NCBI GenBank assembly: GCA_020055645.1
Contig: CM034547.1
Location: 3,844,001-3,908,000, forward strand
Direction of reading: 5' to 3'
Length of the DNA: 64,000 nt
DNA from: Tomocerus qinae
Lineage: Eukaryota; Arthropoda; Collembola; Entomobryomorpha; Tomoceridae
Part shown: piece by piece, positions 6,728 through 64,000 of the stretch
How positions within the stretch are numbered: the stretch's first letter is position 1
Layout of the letters: each line of letters starts with the position of its first letter
The notes under the pieces: model-generated
Database searches by the model: none
What the model was told of the DNA's origin: nothing
Seen by the model: the letters and a program-made list of their open reading frames with translations, nothing else
Position numbers and translations under genes: made by a program

Positions 6728-8262
6728 ATGAAGCTTCACTTTTTTGCTGCTGAAAGCAAAATGGTCAATTGGACCGTTGATAACGTGGAGACGAACTTGC
6801 TTGAGATTGGTAAATGGGCATTTGACTCAGTGCGGATTTTAGGATATTGGCCGCTGACAATTGTGACTCATTTGACAGAAGATCGCATCGGTTACAATAA
6901 AGTGAAATCTTTGACATTCATTTTAATAAGCTTTCCATGTGGATGGGTGATTTTTAACTTGTTGGTTGATATTTTGATGTTTACTTACTATTTCCACCAT
7001 TCTTACTCTACAGTGATGAGTAATGATACTCTTGTCGTGAACAAGCATCCTAAGGGGGAAACTGCGGCATTGCTAGTACTGTTGTTCATTATGGCGACAG
7101 CAGTTCTTTACTTCAAAATCAGTGGAATCTTCAGTGGCAAAGCATTTGTCCAGTTTTGGCAAAAGACAACATTAATTTATAAAAGTTTGCTGCACATCGG
7201 TGTTAACTTAAGTACTGCGGAATCCGCTTTGTTTTTCACAAGCCTTAAAGCCCGGATTAGAAATCTTACTTTATTATGCACTTTTGGGACTTGTATTTAC
7301 ATCTTGCTAATGATTTATTTATACACCCAAATCATGCCCGTAAATGGTTCCATTTTTGATCAGCTGCTGCACTACACAGCCGGGATCAATTGGTGTTTTA
7401 AATCCATTTTCCATGTCAATCATTCTATTTGGTTATTTTTCTTTATGAAATTATACAGCAGGGCTTTTGAGATAATTGCTAAAGAATTGGGAAGTTCATC
7501 GCTTGTGCCAGTGCACCAGGAGAAAAAGCTTCTCAAAAACCTGCTTTACATTTACTACGATGTAGAAATGCAAATCAGGAAATTCAATGAACTTTTCGGG
7601 TACAAATTGCTACTCGAAATATTTCTATGTGCAGTTTCTCTACTATATAGTTCCATATCAGGAATAGCAATCGTACTTTTCCAACGACTAAATTACTTCT
7701 TTCTCATTTCATACCTTTTACTGATAGTGGCTTTCTCTTTCTTTGAATTGGTACTCCTCATTTTTACTGCATCGGATCTAACTACTGCTTCCAAATCTAT
7801 TGCGGACTCCATAAGAATAAATTCTCTCGATAGATTTGACAGTGATTCAAAGATAAAGGTAACTTTTACATCTTCATATTTTGCACATTTAGAAAATCGT
7901 AATAACCATTATTTTCGCACATTCTATGCTCTCAACTCTTGTGTTTATAATTCAACCCACTCAGACTATATTTTATTATAACTATTTTACAGGCACAACT
8001 ACTTGTATCAACATTGGAGAACAACCCACCTGCTATATCTGCAGCTGGGTTTTTTATTCTAAGCCGAAAAGTTTTGATTTCGGTAAGTCCAGAAGCGAGT
8101 CTCGCTTGTCGCTTGTTAAATAGTAATTTCAGTGTCTTGAATCGTATTTTACATTATTGCATATTGTAATTGTGACTCTCATAATAATATCAAATTGCAT
8201 TACAGGTGGGCAGTGTCCTAATTACTTACGTCATCGTCCTTATTCATTTTACAGATACTTAG
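6728..8262 (+). CDS. Gustatory receptor (7tm_7 family), complete, three exons
   Basis: The exons are 6728-7858, 7993-8082 and 8206-8262, all joined in phase 0 and giving 425 residues. This is the normal size for an arthropod gustatory receptor. Exon 1 carries several hydrophobic helices, for example LTFILISFPCGWVIFNLLV, AALLVLLFIMATAVLYF and the run around YFFLISYLLLIVAFSFF. Exon 2 encodes the conserved segment NNPPAISAAGFFILSRKVL. Exon 3 encodes VGSVLITYVIVLIHF, the form of the family's TYxVxLxQF C-terminal motif. Two short phase-0 exons at the 3' end are typical of these genes. The protein would be a ligand-gated cation channel in taste or other chemosensory neurons; the ligand is unknown. 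Two in-frame ATGs (6728 and 6761) could serve as start. The upstream one is used here. Confidence 0.9.
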
Positions 8263-21491: not shown

Positions 21492-24400
21492 ATGGCCCAA
21501 GTGTATAAAAAGGCGGGAGAAATAAAAGTTTTTCAGTTTCAAAGAACTTGGAAAAGCGTTTACCATTTGTTTTCCATGCCGGTGTTTTTCTTCTTTCTTC
21601 TTGCACTTTCACTCGTTTTTGGGGGGCCAGTGAACCTGGAAACGAGTTTTGGTGCTAAAGTTCATGCACGTCAAATACTGAGTGAATTTCCTTACCGTCG
21701 ACATCAAAGTGAAAATGAAATAGAATCAGATAATATAGAAAACCAGTTAGTGAATCCATCAGAGTTGACATTCAATCTGAATGAATTCTGCTCAGCTGAT
21801 GTTTCATTAGAGAAAGTAGTCTGCAACGGTCTGAAGGGACGTCACGATCTGCCCAAAAGAGAAGATGACTTTGATGGAATTCAACAGGCGATTTTCGTCA
21901 ACGTTTCTGGAAGTAGTGATATTCAGCTTCAAGATGTGCATCGGGTATTTCCTAACCTAATTCTCCTGAGCATCAATCACTGCCCGGAGTCAGCAGGAAA
22001 TATAATTAATCTGACGAGGAAGATCAGAGACTTGACTCTCTTGAGTGACACTGGCGACAACAGTACAATTCCAGAGGCTGAAGATGATAGTGCATTTGTT
22101 AGTGACAACGGCACGATGGCATTGGCTTACACCAGTAGTGGGGCAAGTGGGACATCCTATTATGAAAATCATGCCTTGCCAGGGGACGACGCAGCTCCTG
22201 GAGAAAACGAAGACACGGAAGGGCAATTTATGTGGAAATCTGTACGCTTACTCAACTTATCATGGAATGAGTTGACGTCTGAGTCTATTCCCAAATCACT
22301 CTTGAATATGTTCCCAAATCTGGAGCAGCTTGATTTATCGAATAACTTCATCTCAACTTTAACCAATATTCCTCAGAAGGACTGGGTTCAGCTAAAGACT
22401 GTTGACCTTTCTGGTAAGTTTTCACGTCCTACTCGCTTATTTATTGACGCTGACTTTACTCATACAGAAAAAGTTACTCTCACTCTTCTTTTGTCGCATC
22501 CATGCACCGATCTACTCACCGACAAACACTTTTTATCCACCTTTATAATTGGATTACTATACTGCCAGTGCTTATACTTACTATTGACTTTTAGTGATAG
22601 CAACAACCAAATGACAAGCTTAGAGTATTTCCAAATACTAAAAGACTTTATTTAATAGGATCGGTCTTACTAGGTTACTAGATATTAAATGAATGAGAGT
22701 GAAATTCCATTATAAAAGTAGAAGTAAATAGGTCGGTATTATTGTTCCTAATTGGAAGTGTGCCTAAACTTGCTCATCTCGTTTTGCTCCTTGCCTATTG
22801 CTTCAGATGAAACTAATGAACACAACTTGCTAAAATACATTTACACGTGTGCAGAGACTCTTCATTTTTTGTATTTTGCAATAGAATTGCATTATATCTT
22901 TACTTTCTATAAAAGATGAACACTTACGTGTTCTGTTATCAATGGGCATTATTGGGCTATTGGGCATAGGCTATATTTCACTATAATGTAAAGTGTAGAA
23001 TAAAAAACGTAGGGTAATGGGTACAATGTACTTTTACATTGCCAATCCCTCCTGTTGTGTATGAAAAACATTACGTCAAGGAGTTATATTGAGTATGCGA
23101 ATTATTAAATCAGCCTGGCAGTTGACAAGTTGAATTAATGTAGCCGCACAAAGTAAAAATGAAATTGCTACTGATATCAACGTTTAAGCAGCTAAAAATA
23201 GATTCACCCATTTTTAATCGTACTCAGTGATTGAAGTTTGAATAACAAAACTGGTATGAGTTTACTTTGTTTTAAAAATCTTTTGCTGATACCATTTTTG
23301 TTTACAACTTCCATGAAGATGGAGCAAATCAGGGAATTACGTCCCTGTGTATTTTAAGAAGATTAGATATTAGTAATACCAAAGCTTAAGTTGCCCCGCA
23401 TCTGCCTGAGGTCATTTGTTGTGGTCTCGAAATAGTTGGTAGGTTGACACTAACACTAAACACTAATCAATATAAGGCAGCACCTAAAGATATTAATACT
23501 TATTATCACGTACCGAAATGTATAAAATTTAGTGGCTATATAATACAGCATAATATAAAGTCTGCTTTAAATCAGTAAACTTTGTTTAGCTGGCTAACCT
23601 TATTACGTAATCACCTTTTTAGCTTATTGGTTGTTCAATTTACTCCATCACAGCTAGTTATCATTGCAAATAATATAATGATGTACTTTAATTCTTGTTA
23701 ATCTGATTGAACCCATTTGGATAGACTTACAATGCAGTATATAATAGCCTTAAGTGGAAAGAGATAAATAGCAAATCTCCAAATAGCGTATTTTTAGGAA
23801 GTCTATTCTTTGATCTAATCACCGCTGCAACGTAAATCATTAATGACTTGGCGTATTTACTTCTATGCATAATATTACTAGTTATTAGACCCTAATCGTA
23901 TTTAAATGCTGTACATTTTCAGCCTACAATATAAATTCTGTCACTAAATGCCAGTGTCATCCATCAAATGCTAAGCCATAATTAGCAATTCTGTTTTAAA
24001 TGTATAAGACTTAAAATAGTAAATCGTTCTAATTATGCATTTTGCATGAACTAGTTTGCACTGGAGTTTAAATCTTATTTGGATTTATATTAGTGTAGTA
24101 GAGATAGGATTTGACCACTGTTATTAGATCATACATCTGGCACATCTTTCATAGACTACACCATGAATTACCAGAATGTTAAACACAAATTCTCGGTAAT
24201 CTATTTGTAGCTGTGTAAAAGTTAATAAACTAAGAAGTAATTTCAAGTTTAAATTTGTTAGCTGCAAGAACAATCTCATTTGTGGTGGCCATAAATAATT
24301 CTTAATGTTCAGAAAGCGTCTCGTCCTTATGTGGTCATTTATTTCCATTAAACCCTCTACATCAAAAATGAATCTGACAGCAGAACTCTGAAGGTGGAGT

Positions 24401-27400: not shown

Positions 27401-30400
27401 CCGATGTTTTTAAAGTCTGGTTTTTATTACAGCACTTTCGATACGTACTTTGTTTGATAACATTGTGTTGTTAATGAGCCAAGTGGTCCAACAGTCAGTA
27501 TAGTAAGTGTGGGATGTTTTCTTTAGCTCAATTCATTTGCATATCAATTCATTTACATATGTACAGTAAAGATAATAGATACCTACTTAGGCAGTACAAA
27601 ACTAATAACATAGTAGTAGCAATAACATAACCTATATAGGTTTGATTGTGACATTTATAATTAAATAATACCTATCTATCTGTAATTGTCTGTCAGGAAT
27701 CCGAAGTATATTACTCAAGCGCTCTGCTCAACTCACTTCATTCTTCAGCTGCTTTAAAGTATAAAATAAAGATCGGATCCCCTAAGACCCCCTAGTTATA
27801 CACCTCACCCCACTATTGCCCTGGTGCTTGCTCTGCTGTCTGGTGGTCCTTCAGTATTCTCTCAGCTCACTACAAGGAAGCATTCAAATAGCTGCATAAA
27901 TTGTATTTTGGAACGAAATTATAGTTTTTTTGACACTTGCAAGGGGTTGGACCCCAAAAAATTTTGTTACCTGAATAAGGTATCATCATTGTGACAATGG
28001 TTAACAAGCAAATCCCAGGCGGTGAGACCCCAAATCGGGATTCTAATACCCAAACAGTGACAGTGGACGAGCTAAGAACTTTAATATTGCCATCCTTACA
28101 GGATATGATCAAAAGTGCTGTGGCCGAAGCCACAAAGTCTAATAAGTCTCACCCTGAAAAACCCATAAGAACCAGCGTGCAGACAAAAAACGATTCATTC
28201 GAAGATGAGCTGTCCAAAATTTCAACGTCCGATGACGGACAAATATCGGAAGACGATCTAGATCCGATCGCACAAGTATCGAACATGAGTGCCAAGTGGC
28301 CTCCACCACCTAAAACTGCAGAGTTCTTACAGGTGACAACTGACACCAAGCAGAACGATATATATTTAATTATTGTTTCAAATTTGAAATTATATTAATG
28401 GCATCATAGAGACCATGTAAAATATTTGAAAATTAAACCTTTTGTAGAAATGCTTACAAAGATCGTTGACTAAAGAAGAGAGGACAAAGATGCGAGAAAT
28501 CCATCCTCCTCCAGATTTAGGAGAGGCAGAAATGCCCAGATTGGACGAAAATTTGAGTCACTTACTGAGACAAAGAAAAATATCTCTCAAACGTAATTAT
28601 GGGCTGCAAGCCATTGAATCAACGCAAAGATATCTTCTGGACAGCATCGGTCCATTGGCAAGTTTGCACGCAATCGCAACTGAAGCAGAATCTGCGAATA
28701 AAGAGTTAAACGCTCAAAATGTCATTTCTCACGTTAATTATGGTATTAATATTTAAATTGGCAATCTAGATTGTCTGATTAACGAACTAAATTATTGGGG
28801 TAATATTATTTCTGTGCTTATCGTTACAGCACTGTCATTTTTCGGCAACGCAAACTCTCAGGCAATTTACTATCGACAACGCTTCACTCTTGCCAGTATT
28901 AATGGAACATTGGCACCGTATGCACCCATTAGTACAAACGCAGAAACTGTACCTAGCAGCGTGGCCAATAACCGGAATGTCGGAAATGAGAATGAAATTT
29001 CTGAAGTCACTAAGCAATTGCTCGAAAATTCCATTAGAAAGTCAACCCGAAAATCCTACAACTCTGCTTGGAAAGCATTTCAGTTGTGGCTCGCTTCAAG
29101 GCCAAGAAATACCCTTCATATCACTGTACAAGATGTAGCAGATTACCTTTCACATCTCCATACTAAAGCCTTTTCCTACCGAACAATCAATCTACATAGA
29201 TCTGCAATTTCTTACTTTGCAACTCCTATTAATAATGTACCCATTGGACAACATGAAACTATTATGAAATTGTTGAAAGGTATCTTTAACTTAACACCTC
29301 CGACTGCGAAATATACGGAAACGTGGGACGTCTCAGACGTAGTAACCTACATCAAAAATTTAGGACCAAATTTAGACCTTCCATTGTCCACCTTATCTAA
29401 GAAATTGGCCACCTTGCTCGCTATCACAAATGCAGACAGATCATCTGATATACACGCACTGGATATTTCAAAATTAACCTTCAGACCCGAAGGAGCCGTA
29501 TTTGAATTTGTTCACTTGCGGAAGACCTCCAAATCCGGATTTACTCAACCATCGTTCTATGCGAATTTCGATACCAATGAAAATATTTGTGTCGTAAAAA
29601 CTCTCAAAGACTACATAAGTAGGACAGCAGACTTAAGACAATCAACACGTCTCCTGATATCCCATATCAAACCGCATAAAGAAGTTACAACTGCTACTAT
29701 ATCACGGTGGATCGTAGATATCCTCAAGTCAGCAGGAATAGACACTACCAAATTTAAAGCTCATTCTACACGGTCAGCGTCAACGACGAAAGCCTTTTCG
29801 GCCGGCATTAGCCTCCACGATATCAAACGCCATGCAAATTGGAGAAAAACCTCAACTTTTAACAGATTTTACTATCGGCCTACCTTTTCTGCCGAGTTTA
29901 GCACATCAATCCTAAATGGTACAGACAAGACTTTGAACAGCGCTTGAGTAATATACTTCGGATTCCTGACAGACAATTCAGGATTTGACGAGGGCTCGAA
30001 GAGCCCGATGTTAAGTCCTAATTGTCTTAAGGAATCCGAAGTATATTACTCAACCCACCCTCCACTCCCAATTTAATTGAATATGTCTGTACCATATTAT
30101 ATATGTATTAACATTTAAATACGGCTATGTTACGTAATTTCAGGTGGAGCAAATGATTCAAGGAACTAGAAGAGATTACTGTTTTCTAAATAGTGCATCT
30201 GATCAAATATTCGTAGACATGTTATATCTCCTTTATAAATGACCCTTAATAAAATTGAGATAACTAACGAGAATTTGTTTATCTTTCTATATTTCATTAT
30301 TATTTTGTTCGCATCGAGAATACTGAAGGACCACCAGACAGCAGAGCAAGCACCAGGGCAATAGTGGGGTGAGGTGTATAACTAGGGGGTCTTAGGGGAT

Positions 30401-33400
30401 CCGATCTTTATTTTATACTTTAAAGCAGCTGAAGAATGAAGTGAGTTGAGCAGAGCGCTTGAGTAATATACTTCGGATTCCTTAAGACAATTAGGACTTA
30501 ACATCGGGCTCTTCGAGCCCTCGTCAAATCCTGAATTATTTGTTTCTTAGAAATTAAATATCACACGAGATAGTAAAACCATGCTAATAACATTTTTTGT
30601 ATTGCTGAACTGCATTTTGAATCTGGTTCACGAGGGATCGCTTCGCGTATTATACCTAAACTCATTTTTCCTCAGGATTTCATTCCACTAAAAAAACAAA
30701 TCTCTTCTGAATTTATTGGAGATTGAATGCGTAAAGAAAGATGCATAACTATTCTCAATTAAAAAGGATTTATGCATTATAGTATACAAAGTATTGTGGA
30801 ATGCTTATTAGTGAAGCCGTCTGTGCTATAGTATAATGAGTTTGACTGGCGCCAGGCTACTGGATTAACGGGCTTGTTCCAAATACCCAATAACATATCT
30901 GCAGCCTGACTCTTACTGCAATTCAATATCAAGGTGATAAAAACCAAGTACCTGCTGTTATTCCGTTGCGTTGCCTCTTAGACCATCTCAATCAATAGAG
31001 GTAATCAGATGCAATATACATACCATTACATCGTAGTAAGAAAACGCATACTAAACAAGCATACAAAAGTCTGCCTAATAAAAACTATGATCAAGAATCC
31101 GAGAGATATGCAAAACTCTTTTTTTAATAAATTCTTATGCATAGTTCTTATCTTATATTACAGAATTTCAAATATAGATAGAGATGCATAATTTTTACTA
31201 TTAGCCCATTTTTATTACAACATATAATTACAGCCTGTTTCACCTACTTATATACATTATGTCCTATATAGTGTGTTTATAAATATAGCAAACTGTATTT
31301 GCAGAATAAGCTATAGACAAATAATAAAGACTTAGTTATATCTGTAGGCATATTTCGTTGCTACTTAAATCTCGCCAAAGCAGAACTGTTTTTGTGGTGC
31401 TGTCTTTGTTTGCTTCTAATCCAGCATTGTAGATTTTTTCGTAGCTAATTCCAAGGGGATGAAATTCTGGATAAAACTGGATTGTGTGGGATGCTGGAAC
31501 GGACGTATTCCTACAGTTAATCTTTTCTTTAATACAAAATCCATTGGCTATTGGAGATGTCTGGGTATTTATATAGTATTCACTTTGTCACTGCGTGTGT
31601 AGGTCGTCTCTTGGACTTGGAGGAGATGCTAATCGATGGAATGACATTGAGATTTACCTTCTTCTTCTCCTACTTAATATCTTAACTAAAAATAACAATT
31701 TCATTTATTAGTCTCCTGGCGAAGAGCAAATCTTCATTAGATAACTGAGTACTTCTCAAATGTTTCCATTACGGGCTACTTATGTAATTCTCAATTACGC
31801 TGATGGTAGCCTCAAGTTTATTGAACATTATACAACAGTGTCAATATTAAAAGGTGTCTGCTATGTTCTGAGGCAAAATGAGAATTTTGTGAGAGAGGCT
31901 ACACTAATGGTTTAGTTGGTTGAGGTTGGTTTCATAGAAGAGTGTTTGTAAAAGGTTAAAACAAAAGTGGTGAGATAGCATAATTTGTACATTAGACTTG
32001 ATCTTCATTTATGACTCACTCTCATTGTCCTTAAAGTTCCGCTTGTAGTAAGGAACAACTCTTTCCCCTACAGACTACGAATTTTTAATGTATGGAAGAC
32101 CTTTAAACCCTGGAAGAGCAAGTTCTTTTTCCTGCCTCGTCATTAATTATTTGTACATAAATTATTTGACCCAGTAAGAATATAAATATCCAGCAATACA
32201 TGTATGATCAATGATTAATAAACTTTGCCACAGAATTTTATTATAGCTAGCTTTGCTAATATTTATTTTTGGCACATTGGGCGGAGGTAGCTAATCAGAG
32301 TTTTAAATAAATAAAGACTGGTTTTAGCTACTATACAAATGCAAATGAGCAAATATTTATTATGGATAGCAAGCCTGGTAGTAGATGTTCGTTCATCATC
32401 AATGTCCTTAAAAAATTTTGAGGTAACGTTCAGAATATTTATTCCATGGTATTTAGGTATGTTTATAGTGAATACTACTTTAAATCAAGTAGAAAAATGA
32501 CAAGCGTGCTTACCTCTGTGAATATATATTAGTGTCAATCCATCATCATGATGCTCGAGCGTAGTCTCACTTAAGTATTTCTCTTTGTCTCATGTCAGCG
32601 TTTTAAACCTTTTATCTCTCTAAGGATGTAAAAATAAGTCAGTAGGTATATACTAGCCACATCGAGGGAAGAGCAGTATCCAATTTTATTTATTGTGCTC
32701 TATTACATTACTACCTACGCAATAAATGTCCTTCTGTTATCTGAGAAAGGCTTGTTTTTGGATTGTCATCCTTTTTTAATCTGCTAAGAGTGATTTAAAG
32801 ACTTATTTTTTATTATCCTTAAAATCGACTGCTTGTATCTTCAATGTAAACACTTTGTGAAATTGCGTTCTACCTAATTACTTTTAATGCATTTTGTATC
32901 ATCTGTACGTACTACGATATACAATATAGTCTATCTGCCTGTCTATGTATCGCTTTCTGGCGATTTATCTCCTTTTATCATTTTCGTTCAAACTTGCAAT
33001 CTTTTTGGAATTAACATTGGTCACTTTCAGCTATTTTTAAGTTACAGTCATGAACAAGTTTAGGAATGAAAGTTCCTGAATTTTCGGCGTTTCGGGAGAA
33101 TATTATATGCATAATTTCCGACCAAATACGACTGAAAGTGGTAAAATCTGTCGATATTTGCATGAAAGTACTTTTTGACAATTGAACTTGGTGTTCCCCC
33201 CGAATGGAAGCTTCTGTCTCACGGTTTCCGACTTGTATTCCGACATTACCCAAGGTAATACGCTACCCTACTACATTTCAGAAGTTTTCGTTATGTCTGA
33301 CACTAGTAGCCTCATACCTTTACATGCTCAAGCCCAACCCTCGAGGCTCTATTTGTATATTTCGTCAGGGTTGCTTTATATTCCGTTTATGGATCACTTT

Positions 33401-56616: not shown

Positions 56617-57437
56617 ATGCAAATTCGTCAAGTTCCTATGAATCCTCATCCAAACCCGAATAACGGTCTCCAAAATGTTCGCCGGGATATTGTTCGGGGA
56701 GACCGGGGCCAACAACGTCACCAGCAGCTACATCAACGTCTACCGACAAATCTGTCTGAGATGACTTATCAGAACAAGAAGATATTGATCCGAAGACAGC
56801 TTTTACTGATGCTCCACGCCAGAATGTGCCTCTGTGAAGATGTCATGCATCAAAGGGAAAATCCCAACACACCAAGACCACGGGTAAAATAATACATTTT
56901 GGAAAATTAAATAGATAATAACTCGTGACCTGGTTGAAAATGTGACTGAAAATAAATGTCAGCGTAAATTAATCGACATGAATGATCTCCTCATATGCAT
57001 ATCTTGTGGTGGTAATAATTTGTACTTGAATTTTGCAGTGTGATATGCCACATTGTGGATTATTAAAGACTGTACTGTACCATATGAAGAATTGCACCTT
57101 GGGACGTGACTGTACCGTTGTTCACTGCTCCTCCTCAAGACAAATTCTAAGTCACTGGAAAAATTGTGCAAATCATGCCTGTCCGGTGTGTCCAGAAAGA
57201 CTGAAACCCAGCAATTATTATCCAAGACCGAATGTTGATGATGATCCTACTGGTCAGAGACTTCTTTCAGGACCTGATCAAATCGGTACTCCAGATTTTG
57301 TAAGGCATCTCAATAGCTTTAAAAGGCTTCTTCATTCTGAAATTGACATTTTAGCAGCCACATTCGACGCTGTTGAGACTGGAGAGAGTCCTACTGTATC
57401 TTCTACTACCGGGGAAATTATTCCCGTTGAAGAATAG
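56617..57437 (+). CDS. Stand-alone TAZ1 zinc-finger protein (CBP/p300-type domain), two exons
   Basis: The exons are 56617-56883 and 57039-57437, joined in phase 0 (CGG|GTAAAA to TTTTGCAG|TGT), giving 221 residues. The region from about residue 50 to 150 reads as a TAZ1 domain: IRRQLLLMLHARMCLCE, CDMPHCGLLKTVLYHMKNC, DCTVVHCSSSRQILSHWKNC and HACPVCPERLK supply three Cys/His zinc sites in the order seen in CBP and p300. In those coactivators TAZ1 binds activation domains such as those of HIF-1alpha and CITED2. Here there is no KIX, bromodomain, acetyltransferase or TAZ2 and only short flanks: a Gln/Asn/Arg-rich N-terminus and an acidic C-terminus. An intron argues against a processed copy. A role as a small adaptor or as a competitor for CBP partners is inference. 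Confidence 0.85.
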
Positions 57438-63286: not shown

Positions 63287-63671
63287 GTAAATATTATGTG
63301 TGTGTAGTTAGATTTTCGTACAAGTTGGCCAATGTTAGTAGAGTTAGTTGATTGTGTATTCCGACAGACTAGATTGTTTGATACTTCACTGCTTTAATTG
63401 GGTTTTGTTGCGATGTGAATGTTGTATTATGTGTGTGTGTGACCTGACTCTGTGTAGTCCTACAATTACATTTAGGTAGATAGATTAGATTTCTGTAAAC
63501 CACCAGCTAGAGTAACAGTATGTATAAAAATATAAAGTCTAGCACTCTCTTGGAATATTGGTACTTTGTCTTATTCAATTATTAACAAAATGCTTTTTAA
63601 TTATTTGGACCTTAGTTCTGTAATAATAATATTGTCTGACTAAATACATTTTATAAAATGTTCATTTTCAG

Positions 63672-63915
63672 GGGGCTAAAGATAACATCCGGCACTGTGA
63701 CAATTACCAAAGATGAAAATACAAATATGATTGGTATTAGTATTGGGGGTGGTGCACCAAACTGCCCTTGTCTATATATTGTGCAAGTGTTTGATAACAC
63801 TCCGGCTTGCAAAGAAGGAACTTTACAGAGCGGAGACGAGATTACTGGCGTCAACAGCAATTCTATGAAGGGTAAAACTAAAGTAGAAGTTGCCAAAATG
63901 ATCCAGAGCATTAAA
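63672..63915 (+). CDS. PICK1: PICK1 PDZ-domain exon (gene continues beyond the window)
   Basis: Acceptor TTTTCAG, donor ATTAAA|GTAAGT (phase 0), 81 codons after completing the split codon. It encodes most of a PDZ domain: GTVTITKDENTNMIGISIGG contains the carboxylate-binding loop, followed by CPCLYIVQVFDNTPA, GDEITGVNSNSMKGKTKVEV and AKMIQSIK. This is diagnostic of PICK1, a peripheral membrane scaffold with a PDZ domain followed by a BAR domain that handles receptor and transporter trafficking. The BAR exons lie to the right of the window. Confidence 0.95.
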
Positions 63916-64000
63916 GTAAGTTTGATCACTATTTTTTACACAGTCATTGAAATAAGTTTCATTTTTATATTTCGAAATTCAAATTATTGATTTTGTTATT
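63916..64000 (+). other. Start of the next PICK1 intron
   Basis: Begins GTAAGT and runs to the window edge without an acceptor. Confidence 0.8.

Follow-up and report, generated by a model that had tools for sequence, protein, structure and literature searches.

A gag–recombinase element in Tomocerus qinae is very probably an internally deleted copy of a DIRS1-like retrotransposon family

The window analysed here is a stretch of 64,000 nucleotides of Tomocerus qinae, corresponding to C2:3844001-3908000 in the 334-Mb assembly of 115 contigs that we searched, in which all match counts are lower bounds. On its forward strand it carries an element of 2,854 bp (27684..30537) with AATT at both ends. 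These limits match those of a sibling copy, L009 (1001-5965 of that locus), whose flanks are different, and no target-site duplication is present beyond the AATT. The left inverted terminal repeat (ITR; 27684..27861, forward strand) and the right one (30316..30493, forward strand) are perfect over 167 bp (27695-27861 and 30316-30482), the outer 11 bases on the left (27684-27694) and the remainder on the right being divergent. The inverted repeats of the original prediction are real, their perfect part being 167 nt where 166 had been given. A right extension of 44 bp follows (30494..30537, forward strand); apart from the right end it is present in the internal region alone, a layout described in section 10 of PMC3266345.

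Two internal complementary regions lie on the forward strand close to the right end. The left one (29939..29978) matches the left end at 40/40 positions, the right one (29975..30053) matches the right end at 79/79, and the AATT over which they overlap (29975-29978) represents the circle junction. Taken together, these 115 nt (29939-30053) are the exact reverse complement of the right end plus the left end joined over one AATT, which bears out base for base the predicted identity of an internal region with the joined outer ends. When up to 3 mismatches are allowed, the window contains the 24-nt core of the repeats four times, versus none in 100 shuffles. Folded as single-stranded DNA, the 115-nt region is strongly structured (-40.1 kcal/mol, z -13.4) because both of its halves contain the inverted core. 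Over about 515 repeat positions we found no difference, giving a rough 95% upper bound of 0.58% for change since the ends were last equal, which fits a recent regeneration of the ends.

Between the ends, a gene model of three exons on the forward strand encodes a gag split by two introns and fused in frame to a tyrosine recombinase (YR), both of which features had escaped the original prediction. Exon 1 (27997..28332) encodes the N-terminal part of gag and exon 2 (28448..28742) its middle part, while exon 3 (28830..29947) reads in a single frame from the end of the kept gag into the YR and has its stop codon (29945-29947) within the internal complementary region. Intron 1 (28333..28447, 115 nt, 74% A+T) and intron 2 (28743..28829, 87 nt, 72% A+T) both have GT...AG borders and are richer in A+T than the exons (55-60%). 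Their predicted splicing yields an uninterrupted product of 582 aa. In this product the N-terminal and catalytic YR domains were recognised by Pfam (PF02899, E 3.6e-9; PF00589, E 6.7e-8). In an alignment of 14 rows, four residues of exon 3 (R203, K231, H311 and R314) show no variation and two others (W337 and Y347) hardly any; we take these six to be the catalytic residues of the YR.

The gag part matches by tblastn the gag of three of 20 other full DIRS loci in the genome (L032-L034) at 36% identity (E 1e-28 to 1e-40), and none of 1,202 candidates from the protein database matched it at E <= 1. No RT (reverse transcriptase) domain was found in the spliced product, where only the YR domains reached the Pfam cut-off. 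In a domain scan of the spliced gag piece and of 9 other frame pieces, one of which was cut, no match was better than E 0.15; of the 19 frame pieces, the 8 left out are of 49-61 aa, too short for an RT. The gag-like part and the complete-looking YR without RT, as originally described, are thus confirmed by Pfam and by the gag homology to L032-L034. Since the RT and RNase H domains that belong to a DIRS1-like retrotransposon, and the methyltransferase (MT) domain that usually does, are all absent, the window copy is to be regarded as a deletion derivative and not as a complete DIRS element. Two further matches were set aside: a sub-threshold Rfam snoRNA match in exon 3 (E 0.14, in a scan of 27500-30700), taken as chance, and two matches from a PDB sequence search (E 0.84 and 0.97), which are not meaningful.

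The origin of this arrangement becomes apparent from the other copies of the family. A left-end query gave at least 10 genome matches from four places: the window element, L009 (C2:9020913-9025877), L010 (C1 near 137.66 Mb) and a right-end fragment (C1 near 4.376 Mb). The sibling L009 is 4,965 bp long and lies on the same contig, 5.1 Mb from the window copy. It has the same introns and ends and differs by one real mismatch in 2,854 shared bases (at 28841 of the window); the mismatch also listed at 28922 reflects the breakpoint edge. Because the flanks of the two copies differ, they represent two separate insertions, and both of these are recent. In contrast to the window copy, L009 contains RT and an RNase H/MT-like region, and its YR lies in a separate, overlapping frame.

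This difference corresponds to 2,111 bp (L009 2242-4352) that are missing in the window copy at a single junction (28923..28924, forward strand), with the dinucleotide CA common to both breakpoints. The missing stretch holds the C-terminus of gag, the RT, the RNase H/MT-like region and the start of the overlapping YR frame. In L009, the exon-3 frame continues through the rest of gag into RT (RVT_1, E 1.3e-27) and the RNase H/MT-like region, the end of which is overlapped by the YR frame; the 2,111-bp deletion therefore fused gag to YR. RNase H of L009 gave no Pfam match and is seen only by alignment to L032 and L033, while the MT-like match (PCIF1_WW, E 7.6e-5) does not reach the cut-off. The full order in L009 is ITR, gag in three exons, RT, RNase H/MT-like region, overlapping YR frame, internal complementary region and ITR with the right extension. 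The RT expected of a DIRS1-like retrotransposon is hence present at the level of the family, through L009, which is the kind of longer relative, with RT between gag and YR, that had been proposed as a possible parent. Five genome matches (a lower bound) were obtained with a 131-bp query across the deletion junction; only that of the window covers it whole, the other four covering one side each. The several copies of the 2.8-kb structure that a propagating family would have left were looked for in the same assembly, and one was found, all counts being lower bounds.

The gene model is supported by the spliced gag-pol of L009 (1,016 aa, no stop), which aligns without gaps across both intron positions to L033 (43% identity) and L032 (44%). 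These two relatives have a single-frame gag-pol without introns at both aligned positions. Within the family, both intron sequences are kept in three long copies: the window copy, L009 and L010 (G000:C1:137661200-137668200). The latter is degenerate and looks the oldest, with 94-98% identity to L009 by block and with the AG of intron 1 lost. A stretch of about 158 bp in L010, equivalent to 28066-28223 of the window, is present in triplicate tandem.

In the genome as a whole, a search with the YR gave 110 matches (a lower bound, from 110 of 191 candidates scored), and 70 of 592 candidates were scored in the search for RT. A listed RT lies just upstream in 61 of the 110 YR places by coordinates, and in 66 when the loci that were read are added. 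The window copy is a YR match without adjacent RT, and the RT tally leaves out 43 of the 110 matches. All 20 other YR loci that were studied (L024-L043) carry RT and RNase H/MT regions by tblastn; gag is recognisable in three of them (L032-L034). The ITR pair with both internal complementary regions is found in 18 of the 20, L029 having none and L035 one pair. The layout of the window element is therefore that of RT-bearing elements in this genome. Many of the at least 110 DIRS-type YR matches have open YR and pol frames, and several pairs have equal scores and may be recent copies.

In the protein database, the search with the whole fused product gave three hits and that with exon 3 gave 166, of which 120 were listed, making 121 relatives combined; the gag part showed no significant match to these 121 (best E 0.39). 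Among the 45 listed relatives with at least 80 aa upstream of the YR, 19 admit the pattern W-P-x3-W-[YF]-x2-L-[LVIM], presumably the signature of the pol tail, when the frame is moved by one base. It stands at -64 in 17 of them, at -65 in one and at -57 in one, and it is absent in the other 26; shuffled sequences contain it in a mean of 0.3 of 45 cases and a maximum of 1. This constant position suggests that the YR frame overlaps the pol gene in at least these 19 relatives. As DNA, no YR relative was confirmed among 1, 43 and 74 pattern matches in viral contigs and 73 in genome contigs. In a tree of 110 rows, the YR of the window falls into a set of five with P0001, P0002, P0004 and P0007 (support 100/99). 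One further relative, P0048, has an RT domain joined directly to the YR, such as the internal deletion of a different DIRS element would produce.

Comparison with known systems places the element near the DIRS1-like retrotransposons. With those described in Piednoel et al. 2011 (PMC3266345) it shares the ITRs, the internal complementary regions overlapping at a short circle junction, the right extension, gag and YR, as well as ends of the NTT type, represented here by ATT within AATT. The ITRs and the right extension are within the ranges of Table 3 of that paper (66-316 bp and 9-75 bp, respectively), whereas the size of 2,854 bp is below the 3,793-6,283 bp of the 28 elements tabulated there. 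Unlike the elements of that source, the window element is without RT, RNase H and MT, has gag fused to YR and contains two introns in gag. SIRE, the non-autonomous form of VIPER outlined in PMC6681497, is likewise a truncated derivative of a YR-retrotransposon that retained the ends; however, it consists in that account of two ends plus about 30 bp, while the window copy has gag and YR and was found once. Among the titles listed from the open-access literature on RT-less or non-autonomous DIRS, none describes an RT-less gag-YR DIRS element. The Crypton DNA transposons also have a YR without RT, but in the account of PMC3212892 they are without terminal inverted repeats, and the window copy has DIRS ends and an RT-bearing sibling. 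Crypton identity was rejected on account of the long ITRs and the internal complementary regions, and the YR gave no DUF3504 match in Pfam at E <= 1. Ngaro or PAT identity, which implies split direct repeats, was also rejected: the outer ends are inverted, and the short direct pairs D1 and D2 arise secondarily from this inverted arrangement.

We conclude that the window element belongs, with little room for doubt, to a low-copy DIRS1-like retrotransposon family, of which it is a non-autonomous copy with an internal deletion. One deletion of 2,111 bp with a 2-bp microhomology removed all that stood between the kept gag and the start of the YR domain, putting gag in frame with YR. In the published DIRS model, which we suppose to hold for this family, new copies would be reverse transcribed from an RNA that is incomplete at its ends. 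The missing parts would be restored with the internal region as template, and the YR would then insert the product at a short shared sequence, which in this family is AATT. By itself the window copy would be incapable of RT-based copying. The deletion may have occurred during copying, by a template jump with RT provided from another copy, or after the insertion of a full-length element.

The original prediction had left a choice between a non-autonomous derivative that kept its own integrase and an RT-less lineage that moves as DNA circles. The former is borne out in structure by L009. The latter, in which the YR would cut the element out as a circle and put it back, a mechanism proposed for Cryptons, appears very improbable. 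The complete ends and the gag-YR frame, open over 582 codons, would be expected of a functional RT-less element, yet the open frame is equally explained by youth. The introns retained in three copies fit movement as DNA, and 43 of the 110 YR matches lie outside the RT tally, but the near-identical sibling has RT, the deletion junction was found once, and an internal region identical to the ends, with no RT to maintain it, fits only a very young copy. An RT-less lineage is not supported for the window element, a statement that covers this element and not the whole genome, and a single copy is what had been named beforehand as refuting it.

Still less probable is an assembly error that joined two parts of a longer element, so that the site truly holds a full-length copy. 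A near-identical longer copy is indeed present in the assembly, but L009 was resolved at full length at its own place, and the breakpoint is clean, with 2-bp microhomology and unique flanks. That the RT region was spliced out of a family RNA which was then reverse transcribed is hardly credible, for all that the family has introns and the join fuses two reading frames cleanly, as the removed stretch in L009 is without GT...AG borders and both true introns are still in the window copy.

The window element is thus no new kind of element. It is an ordinary internal deletion in a recent copy, striking owing to the clean open frame and to the full set of repeats that were left. Now that its origin can be followed to the single base, one candidate for a new class of RT-less elements falls away.

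The introns are odd for an element copied through RNA, and they are the part that deserves specialist attention. The three long copies that keep them have different flanks and represent separate insertions. The survival of the introns through these insertions suggests, from sequence comparison, that the molecule copied in this family would be unspliced RNA, antisense RNA or DNA. Tentatively, and with the balance somewhat against it, one can propose a division between genome and messenger resembling that of retroviruses: two putative spliceosomal gag introns persist in the copied molecule, whether unspliced RNA, antisense RNA or DNA, while splicing would give gag-pol; the window copy would then be a trans-mobilised variant, the spliced RNA of which would encode the gag-YR fusion. 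For DIRS-1, the account in PMC5633606 mentions sense and antisense transcripts, the sense RNA being incomplete and its ends thought to be restored from the internal region, and this review calls the DIRS replication model not fully proven. The main texts of PMC3266345, PMC3783388, PMC2685390, PMC9210276, PMC4157794 and PMC6681497 do not contain the word intron; as these texts belong to the open-access literature only, we make no claim of novelty for introns in DIRS elements. With an intron-bearing family, one could examine from which strand, and from which RNA, DIRS elements are copied.

Elsewhere in the window, the open frames at 57033-57437, 63658-63990 and 21492-22655 look host-like; the domains seen in them are a TAZ zinc finger, a PDZ domain and leucine-rich repeats. 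A further open frame of 417 aa (6728-7981), without Pfam match, gives the impression of a multi-pass membrane protein, perhaps a chemoreceptor.
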